Shown in pieces: positions 23,400 to 63,624 of a stretch of 64,000 nucleotides of DNA. Positions within the stretch are counted from its first letter, which is position 1; each line of letters opens with the position of its first letter. The stretch comes from Arcicella rosea (GTDB taxonomy: Bacteria > Bacteroidota > Bacteroidia > Cytophagales > Spirosomataceae). Made by a program: the position numbers and the translations under genes. The notes under the pieces were generated by a model. It made no database searches. It saw only the letters and a program-made list of their open reading frames with translations, and was not told the origin of the DNA. Location: contig NZ_JACHKT010000009.1 in assembly GCF_014204325.1 (NCBI RefSeq), positions 1 to 64,000 of the forward strand, written 5' to 3'.

Positions 23400-23438
23400 A
23401 ATTTGAGACTGACTATCTTGTTTAGTCAGTCTCAAATT
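23400..23438. terminator. Bidirectional terminator between tolC-like and hmp genes
   Basis: Perfect 16-bp stem (AATTTGAGACTGACTA with its complement) and a 7-nt loop, between two convergent genes. T-rich sequence lies on both sides. Confidence 0.8.
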
Positions 23439-23468: not shown

Positions 23469-24671
23469 TTAAGCCAAAGCTTCACTTGGGCCAAAGAATT
23501 CATAATGTAATTGAGATGCAGGAATATTCGCTGCTTCCAATATTTTTTTGACACTTTTCATAAAACCAACAGGTCCACAGAAGTAATATTCAGCATATAA
23601 AGTTGATAATTTTTCTTTCAAAATATCAATCGTCAAAAAGCCCGAAAATTGTTCAATTCCATCAGCAACATCAGTACTCAAAGGCTCATCGTACAAGCTG
23701 ATAGTTTTTAGCGTAGTTTTTTTACTAGCTAATTGCTGACTTTTTGCTTTGAAAGCGTGTACAGACGAATTTTTCGCACATTGTACAAAAAGTACTTCGT
23801 TTTCAGCAAAATGGAAAAGTTCCATATACATACTCATTAATGGCGTAATACCTACTCCGCCCGCAATTAATACGATTGGCTTTTCAGTTTTTGCCAATAC
23901 AAATTCACCAGCAGGAATACCTAATTTCACGGTATCGCCAACCACTAAATGGTCATGAAGATAGTTTGAAACTACTCCATCAGGATTTCCATTTTCTCTT
24001 TTTACCGAAATTCTCAAAGTATTTTGCGTTGGGCAACCCGACAAACTATAATTTCTAGTATGCAAATGTTCAACCTCTGGCATTTGCACACTTACTGCTA
24101 CGTACTGTCCGCCTTTAAAACTTGGTATTTCCGAACCATCAACAGGTTTGAAGTAAAACGAAGTAATGATGCTACTTTCAGCTTCTTTTTTAGTGATTAC
24201 AAAGTCTTTTTGTCCTCTAAAACCACCTTTTTTAGCTTCGGCATTCTGGTATAATTGTTCTTCTTTTGTGATAAAAAGTGAGGCTAAATCTCCATAAGCT
24301 TCTGCCCATGCATCCATAATTTCTGGTGTTGCGGCGTCTTGCAATACTTCTTTAATAGCTGCCAATAAGTTTGCTCCAACAAGCTGATACATCGCTGGCG
24401 TAATACTCAAGCTACTATGTTTTTGGGTGATTTGTTCTACCGCTGTACTTAAAACAGCTAAATTATCAATGTTTGCAGCGTAAGCATAAACGGCATTGGC
24501 TAAGGCTCTCGACTGTGTACCATGTGACTGATGCGTCATATTAAAGACATTTTTTAGTTCTGGATGGTTTTGAAGTAAAAGCTGATAAAACACTTTGGTA
24601 ATGTTTTCTCCGTGAATAGCTAATACTGGTGCTGTTGATTTTACGATTTCAATTGTTTTTTGACTTGCCAT
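23469..24671 (-). CDS. hmp: Flavohemoglobin, nitric oxide dioxygenase
   Basis: 400 residues. The N-terminal globin domain (about 1-137) has the proximal heme histidine H85 (ITQKHSSLS). The FAD domain (about 150-260) has RNYSLSG and the NAD domain (about 265-400) has LIAGGVGITPLMSMYMEL and YYFCGPVGFMKSVKKIL. The enzyme oxidises NO to nitrate with O2 and NADH in the cytoplasm. It is followed upstream by an Rrf2-type regulator gene carrying three cysteines, and both promoter regions contain the same AAAAGA-N8-TCTTTT motif, so regulation by NO is likely. Confidence 0.96.
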   Translation of the reverse strand: MASQKTIEIVKSTAPVLAIHGENITKVFYQLLLQNHPELKNVFNMTHQSHGTQSRALANAVYAYAANIDNLAVLSTAVEQITQKHSSLSITPAMYQLVGANLLAAIKEVLQDAATPEIMDAWAEAYGDLASLFITKEEQLYQNAEAKKGGFRGQKDFVITKKEAESSIITSFYFKPVDGSEIPSFKGGQYVAVSVQMPEVEHLHTRNYSLSGCPTQNTLRISVKRENGNPDGVVSNYLHDHLVVGDTVKLGIPAGEFVLAKTEKPIVLIAGGVGITPLMSMYMELFHFAENEVLFVQCAKNSSVHAFKAKSQQLASKKTTLKTISLYDEPLSTDVADGIEQFSGFLTIDILKEKLSTLYAEYYFCGPVGFMKSVKKILEAANIPASQLHYEFFGPSEALA

Positions 24672-24715
24672 GATGGATTTGAGTTAATTTTTTAAAATTA
24701 TATTAAATGAAGAAT

Positions 24716-24735
24716 AAAAGACCTTTATATCTTTT
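24716..24735. promoter_or_regulatory. Putative Rrf2/NsrR operator upstream of hmp
   Basis: AAAAGA-N8-TCTTTT lies 45 bp before the hmp start. The same half-sites and spacing occur in the larger palindrome upstream of the Rrf2 gene (25261-25294). No clear -7 element is visible here. Confidence 0.65.
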
Positions 24736-24780
24736 GTATGAAAATGAGATATTAAATTAAGGTTTTAGATTCATGAAATA

Positions 24781-25230
24781 TTAAGCTTGATTTTGTGTTG
24801 AGGTTAAAAAAGTAAGTCCAGAAGTAAGTCCAGTGGCTAGTTCTTCTAAGCTTGTACTTTCCAACAATTTCGTAATATCATTTCTGATTTTAGCGAATTG
24901 ATTATGAAGAGGACAGGGGTTTTTAGCCGAGCAATTTTTAAGTCCGAGTCCACAACTGATAAAAATATTATCGCCATCAACAGCTTTCACGATAGCTGAA
25001 AGCTTTGTTGTACGCATTTTCTCAGGTTGAATTTCAAAACCACCGTTAGGGCCTTTGATAGAATCTAACAAATGGTTTTTTGAAAGTACTTGTAAAATTT
25101 TAGCTGTAAAAGCCTCTGGCGAAGCGATTTCATGAGCAATTTCTTTTATCCCAACTCTTTTATTTTCAAGAGATTGAGAGGCGATATAAATGCTCGCTTT
25201 AATGGCGTACTCACAAGTTTTTGAAAACAT
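24781..25230 (-). CDS. Rrf2 family regulator, NsrR-like, with three-cysteine cluster site
   Basis: 149 residues from the ATG at 25230 (MFSKTCEYAIKASIYIASQS, the usual Rrf2 start); an upstream extension of the frame is not conserved-looking and would cover the promoter. A winged helix (VGIKEIAHEIASPEAFTAKI) and wing (IKGPNGGFEI) precede cysteines 93, 100 and 106 (CGLGLKNCSAKNPC), spaced as in NsrR/IscR-type Fe-S regulators. The adjacent flavohemoglobin gene points to NO sensing. It likely represses itself and hmp through the shared palindromes. Confidence 0.9.
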   Translation of the reverse strand: MFSKTCEYAIKASIYIASQSLENKRVGIKEIAHEIASPEAFTAKILQVLSKNHLLDSIKGPNGGFEIQPEKMRTTKLSAIVKAVDGDNIFISCGLGLKNCSAKNPCPLHNQFAKIRNDITKLLESTSLEELATGLTSGLTFLTSTQNQA

Positions 25231-25246
25231 AATAAAAATATTTCTG

Positions 25247-25294
25247 CAAATATAGTAACGAAACAATAAAAGACAAAAATATCTTTTATTGTTT
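25247..25294 (-). promoter_or_regulatory. Promoter and palindromic operator of the Rrf2 gene
   Basis: Reading the minus strand, TTTTTG (25274-25279) is followed after 19 bp by TATATTTG (25247-25254), a textbook Bacteroidota -33/-7 pair. The -33 element lies inside a perfect inverted repeat with 13-bp arms, AAACAATAAAAGA (25261-25273) and TCTTTTATTGTTT (25282-25294), separated by 8 bp. A dimer bound here would exclude the sigma factor, which predicts autorepression. Confidence 0.75.
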
Positions 25295-25467: not shown

Positions 25468-26637
25468 TTACAATACACTTTCAATACTCGAAAGCGTTAA
25501 GCCCCAAGCATCAGAAACACCTTTATAAACAATTTTTCCAGTTACTACATTCAAGCCTTTTTTCAATTCTTCATTATCTGTACAAGCTTTTTTCCAACCT
25601 TTATTAGCTAATTGAAGTGCATAAGGTAAAGTAGCGTTTGTCAAAGCCAAAGTAGAAGTATAAGGCACCGCACCTGGCATATTGGCTACGCAATAATGCA
25701 CAACGCCATCAATGACAAAAGTAGGATTTTCGTGTGTTGTCGGCTGACAAGTTTCGATACAACCGCCTTGGTCAACAGCAACGTCAACTAAAACTGTTCC
25801 TTCACGCATTTCTTTCAACATTTCACGAGTAATCAAATGTGGTGCTTTTGCTCCCGGAATCAATACTGCTCCAATAATTAAATCAGAAACTTTAATCGCT
25901 TCACGAACATTGTACTCGTTCGACATCACGGTGTCAACATTGACAGGCATCACATCTTCCAAATAACGTAAACGTGGCAAGCTAATGTCCATAATCGTTA
26001 CGTTTGCACCTAAACCCGCTGCCATTTTTGCTGCTTGTGTTCCTACAATTCCGCCACCTAAAACCAATACATTGGCTGGTTTTACGCCTGCTACTCCGCC
26101 TAATAAAATACCTCTTCCACCCATTGGTTTCTCTAAGTATTTCGCTCCTTCTTGAATCGCCATTCTACCTGCTACTTCCGACATCGGAATTAATAATGGT
26201 AAAGAACGGTCTGTTTTCTCAACAGTTTCGTAAGCCAAACAAATCGCTTTGCGTTCAATCATGGCATGTGTTAATGGCTCAGAAGAAGCAAAGTGGAAGT
26301 AAGTAAAAAGTAACTGATTTTCTTTGATTAAATTATATTCAGAAGCAATCGGCTCTTTTACCTTGCAAATCATTTCAGCAATGGCATATACTTCTTCGAT
26401 AGTTGGTAAAATACTTGCACCAGCTTTTACATACTCTTCATCCGAAAAACCGCTTCCTAAACCTGCTTGTGTTTGAATATAAACTGTATGACCGTTCTTT
26501 TTGAATTCTGCAACGCCCGCAGGAGTTAATGCAACACGGTTCTCATTGTTCTTAATTTCTTTTGGTACACCGATAATCATGGGATTGTGGGGGTTAATTT
26601 CTGCTTTTCTGTTATTGGCTAAACCAATCATGCCCAA
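25468..26637 (-). CDS. ald: Alanine dehydrogenase
   Basis: 389 residues if the first ATG is used. The family normally begins at MIIGVPKEIKNNENRVALTP, here residue 20 (26580), so the start may be there. The catalytic lysine/histidine region is LLFTYFHFASSEPLTHAMIE, the Rossmann nucleotide-binding motif is VLVLGGGIVGTQAAKMAAGL, and the C-terminal substrate motif is YCVANMPGAVPYTSTLALTN. It interconverts L-alanine and pyruvate plus ammonia with NAD. An Lrp/AsnC gene is divergent at 26809. Confidence 0.95.
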   Translation of the reverse strand: MGMIGLANNRKAEINPHNPMIIGVPKEIKNNENRVALTPAGVAEFKKNGHTVYIQTQAGLGSGFSDEEYVKAGASILPTIEEVYAIAEMICKVKEPIASEYNLIKENQLLFTYFHFASSEPLTHAMIERKAICLAYETVEKTDRSLPLLIPMSEVAGRMAIQEGAKYLEKPMGGRGILLGGVAGVKPANVLVLGGGIVGTQAAKMAAGLGANVTIMDISLPRLRYLEDVMPVNVDTVMSNEYNVREAIKVSDLIIGAVLIPGAKAPHLITREMLKEMREGTVLVDVAVDQGGCIETCQPTTHENPTFVIDGVVHYCVANMPGAVPYTSTLALTNATLPYALQLANKGWKKACTDNEELKKGLNVVTGKIVYKGVSDAWGLTLSSIESVL

Positions 26638-26675
26638 TAACAGAATTGCAGAGATGTTTGTAAATGAAGTATGTA

Positions 26676-26683
26676 CAAAGTTA
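26676..26683 (-). promoter_or_regulatory. -7 element for ald
   Basis: TAACTTTG on the minus strand, 39 bp before the first ald ATG, matches TAnnTTTG. I see no good TTG 19-21 bp upstream, so the promoter may need an activator, for instance the neighbouring Lrp-type protein. Confidence 0.45.
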
Positions 26684-26808
26684 ATAATACAGGAAATAGT
26701 TTTATATTTGTTGAATAAATAAGGAATTAGTGGTTAGATTTAGGGTTTTTCACGAAAAAAATTCTGTATTAAGCAAATATTACCTTTCTGTAAAGTAAAT
26801 TTTTCTTT

Positions 26809-27282
26809 ATGACTTTAGACGCAACAGATTTACGCATTCTTCAATTGTTACAGGAGAATGCCCAATTGACGATAAAAGAAATCTCAAAACAGATTAATTT
26901 GTCGATGACGCCCACCCACGACCGCATCAAAAGGTTAGAACAAGAGGAAATTATCGAGAAGTATGTGACTATTTTGAACAAAAAAAAGCTGGGAAATCCG
27001 CTTGTTGTTTATTGCAGTATTACATTGGACAAGCAACAGAAAAACCATTTTGAAGAATTCGAGGAGGCAATCAAGCAATTTCCAGAGGTGATAGAGTGCA
27101 GTGTAGTTTCTGGAAGTTATGATTATTTGGTAAAAATCATTGCTAAAAATATGGAGGCATATAATGAATTTTATCAGAAAAAATTATCTGCCTTACAAAG
27201 CGTAGCCCACATCAGCAGTTCCTTCGTGATGTCGGAAGTGAAGAATACGACAGTGTTGCCGATTGGTAATTTGAAAATTTGA
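26809..27282 (+). CDS. Lrp/AsnC family transcriptional regulator
   Basis: 157 residues. The helix-turn-helix is at about 5-60 (DLRILQLLQENAQLTIKEIS then TPTHDRIKRLEQEEIIEKY), followed by the RAM/AsnC effector domain (about 75-145, FPEVIECSVVSGSYDYLVKI). It is divergent from alanine dehydrogenase with a 171-bp gap, an arrangement in which Lrp-type proteins usually control ald in response to alanine or leucine. Confidence 0.93.
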   Translation: MTLDATDLRILQLLQENAQLTIKEISKQINLSMTPTHDRIKRLEQEEIIEKYVTILNKKKLGNPLVVYCSITLDKQQKNHFEEFEEAIKQFPEVIECSVVSGSYDYLVKIIAKNMEAYNEFYQKKLSALQSVAHISSSFVMSEVKNTTVLPIGNLKI

Positions 27283-43324: not shown

Positions 43325-43385
43325 CCGTGTTCTGTGGCACACAGAACACTTGCATTACTTGTGTTCTGTGTGCCACAGACCACGG
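43325..43385. repeat. 25-bp-stem hairpin element
   Basis: The left arm 43325-43349 (starts CCGTGTTCTGTGGCACACAG) and the right arm 43361-43385 are complementary at 24 of 25 positions, with an 11-nt loop TTGCATTACTT. The arms are themselves partly palindromic (CTGTGGCACACAG). It follows the amidohydrolase gene without a clear T-tract, so it is probably a repeat element, possibly also acting as a terminator. Confidence 0.8.
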
Positions 43386-45808: not shown

Positions 45809-46039
45809 AATAAAGTAAAAATCAATGAGCATCTTGTTAAATAGAATGGTCATCTAGTAAAAAGTAATAGTCATCTTGTTAGATGAAATGGTCATCTAGT
45901 AAAAAGTAATTGGCATCTTGTTAAATGAAATGGTCATCTAGTAAAAAGTAATCGGCATCTTGTTCGATGGAATAGACATAAGGCAAAAAGTAGTTAGCAT
46001 CTTGTTAGATAGAATGGTCATAAAGTAAAATCTAATAAG
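45809..46039. repeat. Tandem array 3: 21-bp half-units in 42-bp register
   Basis: Half-units start every 21 bp from 45809 to 46019 (11 in all). They alternate between CATCTTGTTAAATGAAATG and CATCTAGTAAAAAGTAATC types, which agree at about 15 of 21 positions; the first and the last two are more diverged. Every one of the six frames contains a stop inside a typical unit, so this array cannot encode a repeat peptide. Beyond it, 46040-46278 shows no gene and presumably holds the promoter of the operon that follows. Confidence 0.93.
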
Positions 46040-63542: not shown

Positions 63543-63566
63543 TAAATAATTTTTGACATTTATTAC

Positions 63567-63608
63567 ATAAGAAAAGGCTTTCAGAACATTCTGAAAGCCT
63601 TTTCTTAT
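63567..63608. terminator. Bidirectional terminator
   Basis: Perfect 19-bp stem starting ATAAGAAAAGGCTTTCAGA with a 4-nt ACAT loop, between the convergent metallopeptidase and permease genes. Confidence 0.9.
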
Positions 63609-63624
63609 GATTACTGTTTTAAAT

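Follow-up and report, generated by a model that had tools for sequence, protein, structure and literature searches.

Among described regulators, one of the closest systems to the locus presented here is NsrR, which in Proteobacteria, Bacillus and Streptomyces likewise combines an Rrf2 fold with three cysteines and a palindromic operator, and which controls hmp, ric/dnrN, norB and nirK; in addition to hmpA1 and hmpA2, ScNsrR controls the gene that encodes it (PMC4432287, PMC9338935, PMC1274295). The NsrR operator is odd-centred (gATGyAT-N5-ATrCATc, or 11-1-11). Its cluster ligands comprise cysteines 93, 99 and 105 together with Asp8 (PMC9338935), and the His107 ligand of IscR is not conserved in it (PMC4432287). 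RsrR of Streptomyces venezuelae controls its own gene as well, but differs in its 11-3-11 operator and in a large redox/NAD(P)H regulon that is not one of NO genes (PMC5015018). NsrR regulons and their motif have been described in Proteobacteria and Gram-positive bacteria, and HcpR in Bacteroides (PMC1274295). In clade II nos clusters, studied with search queries from Flavobacteriales, Rrf2 genes occupy the same kind of neighbourhood as those considered below; their role was called difficult to predict, and the available sections of that report give no operator or regulon for them (PMC6264515). Our search, which covered open-licence literature, found no operator for Rrf2 NO regulators of Bacteroidota.

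The hmp-rrf2 locus of Arcicella rosea

We examined a stretch of 64,000 nucleotides of Arcicella rosea DNA (the window), in which hmp and an Rrf2-family gene form a tandem pair on the minus strand separated by a gap of 109 bp. The features of the locus are as follows:

23469 to 24671, minus strand: hmp, NO-inducible flavohemoprotein of 400 aa (NF009805, 518.8 bits against a cut-off of 432)
24712 to 24739, no strand: candidate operator upstream of hmp, an imperfect palindrome with its core at 24716-24735 (from the sequence; second site of the genome with the held-out model R2, E 0.0044)
24781 to 25230, minus strand: rrf2, Rrf2-family regulator of 149 aa with C93, C100, C106, H109 and E7 (TIGR00738, Pfam Rrf2, confident Rrf2 fold)
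25247 to 25254, minus strand: -7 element of the rrf2 promoter, TATATTTG (TAnnTTTG; from the sequence, consensus from PMC9723704)
25261 to 25294, no strand: candidate operator upstream of rrf2, a perfect palindrome with 13-bp arms and its core at 25268-25287 (from the sequence; top site of the genome with the held-out model R2, E 2.7e-5)
25274 to 25279, minus strand: TTTTTG, presumably a -33-type element, within the rrf2 operator (from the sequence)

An earlier note on this DNA had described a perfect palindrome with 13-bp arms over the -33 element of rrf2, and a core, AAAAGA-N8-TCTTTT, common to both promoters. Both descriptions proved accurate: the palindrome at 25261-25294 reads AAACAATAAAAGA-N8-TCTTTTATTGTTT, and the core is exact at 25268-25287 and again at 24716-24735, the latter 45 bp 5' of the hmp ATG (24671). 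Within the spacer of the rrf2 palindrome the minus strand carries TTTTTG, which we take to be a -33-type element. A further 19 nt on comes TATATTTG, which fits the Bacteroidota -7 consensus TAnnTTTG exactly (PMC9723704).

Rarity of the palindrome alone was dropped as evidence, since the window holds nine separate palindromes with 13-bp arms, and of 200 dinucleotide-shuffled versions of it 12 had at least one. Cores with up to two mismatches did not exceed chance in the window (27 found, 24.2 expected), nor did cores with one mismatch in the genome (129 places, compared with 171 for a reversed control pattern). The exact core, for which the earlier note had proposed a genome scan, is not frequent at random positions, occurring at three places in the 5.31-Mb genome versus 12 for the reversed control; the same holds for the motif model described below. 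Two of these three places are the hmp-rrf2 locus, and the remaining one is intragenic with a dyad-matrix score of -1.1. As a regulon finder the exact core was rejected as too strict, missing the paralogue and oxidase sites introduced below and accepting the intragenic one, and a near match at C1:295472 was set aside, lying inside a small ORF directly 5' of ATP-synthase-like genes (named from sequence). Because a lone palindrome is unremarkable here and the mismatched core is not enriched, the claim of an operator rests on conservation between genomes. The core search also surfaced a AAAAGTAATNNNCATCTTGT-like sequence present four times at 42-bp spacing (45860-46005), a tandem repeat that is probably coding.

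For ranking sites we used two models trained on sites hand-picked from matrix hits, R1 (40 sites) and R2 (30 sites), the latter built without the A. rosea genome, the genome G008 and Flectobacillus-type loci. In the A. rosea genome, R2 ranked the rrf2 site first (E 2.7e-5), followed by the hmp site (0.0044) and by sites at C7:87852 (0.006) and C7:87344 (0.128); the next match was intragenic (0.149), and noise followed. The third of these sites precedes a second rrf2 gene, whose product is 52% identical to the window Rrf2 (protein search of 59 genomes), and the fourth precedes an adjoining cbb3-like oxidase operon, where it is backed by position, not by score, given an E of 0.128 against 0.149 for the intragenic match.

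The paralogue locus (G000:C7:84571-87879, or L046:2572-5880) consists of the second rrf2 and, after it, a cbb3-like heme-copper oxidase operon; each is preceded by an operator-type palindrome, at C7:87852-87879 and C7:87341-87368 respectively. Subunit I of this oxidase scores 246.6 bits, far below the ccoN cut-off of 583.15, and could thus be a divergent member of the C family, perhaps acting on NO. A search of the same genome for Ric returned nothing at E 0.001.

Conservation of the candidate operator and its putative target genes across Bacteroidota

Close relatives of the window Rrf2 were identified in the same family and order by the protein search of 59 genomes, and at least 79 named Bacteroidota-type loci were gathered in alignment A1. 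The arrangement of rrf2 then hmp, with sites before both, recurs in the closest kin, namely genome G008 and two Flectobacillus-type loci (L054 and L055), and in genome G027; all five hmp-linked loci have sites before hmp, four of them at 14 bits or more and the fifth (L021) at 12.4. Iterative refinement of a dyad matrix on 97 loci led to.AATAAAGGACAA..TTGTCCTTTATT., which takes AAAGA forms in the window and its relatives. With a threshold of 14 bits this matrix gave 162 hits in 98 loci (1.32 Mb), 159 of them between -260 and +30 of an ORF start, a zone comprising 27.1% of positions; in a first-order Markov control of the 97 loci, 3 hits exceeded 14 bits. The matrix had been refined on the same loci, and the counts are non-independent because some of the species are related.

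Sites of at least 14 bits were found within 250 bp upstream of 64 of the 97 clade rrf2 genes, as against 0 of 10 distant Rrf2 genes (ten of the eleven loci L034-L044, leaving out L038; L045, a partial match, was not used). Of the 33 clade genes without such a site, 21 have one elsewhere in the locus, including eleven from Flavobacterium whose sites lie at norC-like, nirK or ric genes, and 12 have none in the stretch examined. Also identified among these 12 was an Rrf2 subgroup with Lys at residue 7 (MISKACKYG; L019:1501-1926 and L024:1501-1932), which may use another operator. Across 22 genomes of the family, a site at E<=0.1 was present in 10 of 13 with a clade gene compared with 1 of 9 without, a comparison whose positive side is largely by construction and whose negative side alone is independent, because nine of the ten positives had given sites to R1.

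The genes directly downstream of sites point to a common theme of NO and denitrification. Besides rrf2 itself (65 of 97 loci), they comprise ric (40/63), a NorC-like cytochrome (8/8), a second cytochrome c (7/9), the Cu nitrite reductase gene nirK (6/7), hmp (4/5), cbb3-like subunit I (4/14), a truncated globin (4/32) and NorB (3/12), where ric was identified by TIGR03652 in the member scanned and its counts include DUF2249-ScdA_N-hemerythrin fusions (L029, L179). The second cytochrome c is directly followed by nosZ in 5 of 9 loci, and one such product scanned is a Sec-dependent NosZ (909 bits versus 625). Some divergent intergenic regions that separate ric from a norC-, nirK- or nos-type gene contain two or three operators (L050:7306 and 7415; L070:2393, 2429 and 2708; L076:2759 and 2925).

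A motif-only scan of 149 genomes of the class, A. rosea included, gave a match at E 0.003 or better in 16. Apart from the A. rosea genome, it yielded 22 distinct sites with a locus returned (G118:C11:1029849 is not counted), and 16 of these precede rrf2 (4), ric (3), norB (2), nirK (2; one of the nirK tally, L187, was also flagged inside an overlapping ORF), a norC-like gene (1), a nos-type cytochrome c (3) or a truncated globin (1). The other six lie off the expected genes: beside fasciclin and pyridoxal-dependent decarboxylase genes (L182), within ORFs (L188 and L195), at a cytochrome c close to a ric gene (L197), at a contig end (L199) and at a gene of no family (L200). In the family genomes, sites other than those of rrf2 precede nirK and a di-haem cytochrome c peroxidase (both G030) and norB (G009, ~2.5 kb off rrf2); candidates at G029:C123:28989 and G007:C37:53046 were discarded as intragenic, and G007:C34:23072 for want of a relevant adjoining gene. 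The cross-genome evidence thus backs two proposals of the earlier note, a predicted operator shared by hmp and an autoregulated rrf2, and a small regulon of NO type, which would additionally take in the paralogue and oxidase sites that the exact core had missed.

Putative ligands and family of the Rrf2 protein

The window Rrf2 matches models of the Rrf2 superfamily (TIGR00738, 84.1 bits over a threshold of 73.3; Pfam PF02082, 85.5 over 30), and its predicted structure (pLDDT 93.6) has the Rrf2 fold, with matches to CymR, RsrR, NsrR and IscR. Cysteines 93, 100 and 106, to which the earlier note had drawn attention, are indeed present and, like His109, do not vary across the 66 clade proteins. 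Of these proteins, 65 have Cys at residue 6, and at residue 7 there is Glu in 58, Gly in 4, Lys in 3 and Gln in 1, never Asp; nine distant Rrf2 proteins carry Arg at 109 (9/9) and Lys at 7. His109 lies three residues past the last cysteine and aligns with His107 of IscR, so that the position of the fourth IscR ligand is occupied by the same residue in all 66 clade rows, and it is a putative cluster ligand here. The counterpart of residue 7 in the alignment is Glu8 in RsrR and, at the same offset, residue 8 in NsrR. A phmmer search of the PDB with the single protein found nothing; a profile search gave RsrR as the best match, with RsrR, IscR and CymR all better than NsrR. In a tree of 75 rows, which is based on few columns, leaves many forks open and includes no characterised NsrR, the window protein clusters with three hmp-linked relatives (support 99/97) and its own paralogue is placed elsewhere in the clade.

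From the computed sites, their conservation and positions, their target genes and the protein residues, we infer with good confidence that the window Rrf2 is an Fe-S repressor of rrf2 and hmp, released by NO, with the two palindromes as its operators; the predicted response to NO follows from the targets and the cysteines.

A histidine placed as in IscR and a glutamate placed as in RsrR, along with a cbb3-like oxidase operon among the targets, would also suit a sensor of iron, oxygen or redox state acting through its cluster, for which the NO genes are only part of the targets. We regard such a sensor as unlikely, given that the most frequent annotated targets deal with NO, nitrite or N2O and that the window Rrf2 falls well short of the IscR equivalog model TIGR02010 (55 bits, cut-off 207.55). 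IscR, although it shares the Rrf2 fold and the histidine, differs further in that no Fe-S assembly gene was recognised among the targets here, as judged by annotation only.

Several features set the protein apart from NsrR, arguing against a drifted true orthologue to which that name should be given. The NsrR equivalog model NF008240 gives it 30.4 bits, compared with a cut-off of 182; the cysteines are spaced 93/100/106, as opposed to 93/99/105; Asp is absent at the position of Asp8 in all 66 rows; and the invariant His109 has no counterpart in NsrR. As the earlier note suspected, the operators also differ, the Bacteroidota motif being the even-centred ARGAYA-N4-TRTCYT, and the consensus gATGyAT-N5-ATrCATc, with up to three mismatches, is not above chance in the window (9 against 10.4 expected) and was found neither between hmp and rrf2 nor before rrf2. 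Membership in the same family, a Foldseek match to NsrR (7b0c) and sites at hmp, ric, norB, norC and nirK, output genes that largely coincide with those of NsrR (hmp, norB, nirK, ric/dnrN; PMC1274295), nonetheless leave orthology with some small probability, though we find it distinctly doubtful. The best reading of these comparisons is a protein that would work like NsrR yet is not NsrR.

Promoter geometry and a proposed NO switch

In 46 of 64 rrf2 promoters the distance from the dyad centre to the start of a downstream TAnnTTTG is 23-25 bp, which places the dyad near -36, over the -33 region (the start point being that implied by the -7 box), and in 27 of the 64 a TAnnTTTG falls within the operator itself. 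This geometry fits a predicted autorepression by occlusion. The same spacing is rare at other targets (6/92); at hmp no TAnnTTTG is placed as in the rrf2 promoters, and the distances differ from target to target. While these observations would allow the regulator to activate hmp, not repress it, a dimer bound over the -33 region of the rrf2 promoters should block polymerase there, and we consider activation very improbable. We find it hardly credible that these sites are bound by another protein, for example the paralogue encoded on C7 or an unlinked regulator: the paralogue locus carries the same type of motif and 12 of 97 loci have no site that reaches 14 bits, but the sites are placed for autoregulation and track this Rrf2 clade in the family genomes, a comparison of which only the negative side is independent.

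The NO-released repressor that we prefer would operate as follows. The rrf2 product would be a dimer of Rrf2 fold, holding an Fe-S cluster by C93, C100, C106 and a fourth ligand, either Glu7 or His109. With its cluster bound, it would sit on 25261-25294, covering the -33 element of the rrf2 promoter, and on the weaker palindrome at 24712-24739 before hmp. Nitrosylation or destruction of the cluster by NO would cause it to leave both sites, whereupon Hmp would be made and turn NO into nitrate, and autorepression would set the amount of sensor and reset the system. The regulon would amount to about four sites, including that of the second rrf2 paralogue and probably that of the neighbouring cbb3-like oxidase operon, with possible cross-talk.

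Bacteroidota are important N2O reducers with clade II nosZ. A wider generalisation, which we hold with as much doubt as belief, is that the window Rrf2 represents an unnamed NO-sensor family found throughout the Bacteroidota, with an operator of approximately TAATAAARGAYA-N4-TRTCYTTTATTA and with three cysteines plus His109 and/or Glu7 as ligands. It would constitute the main switch for NO detoxification and denitrification in much of the phylum, including clade II nosZ, nirK and nor, with paralogues of one genome sharing operators and also reaching a cbb3-like oxidase. With an operator and a regulator defined, together with positions and targets, NO control in Bacteroidota becomes directly testable, and a switch common to an NO-detoxifying enzyme and its probable controller offers a testable candidate for NO sensing in this group. 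The system also provides a natural comparison for how Rrf2 proteins may change cluster ligands and DNA recognition with a physiological output as in NsrR.

Elsewhere in the window, an alanine dehydrogenase gene (TIGR00518) lies divergent from a gene for an Lrp/AsnC-like regulator, the pair spanning 25468-27282 and the regulator, named from its sequence, occupying 26809-27282. A long perfect hairpin at 23400-23438, between the convergent ends of a TolC-like gene and hmp, may act as a two-way terminator, and further long perfect hairpins were observed at 43333-43377 and 63566-63609.
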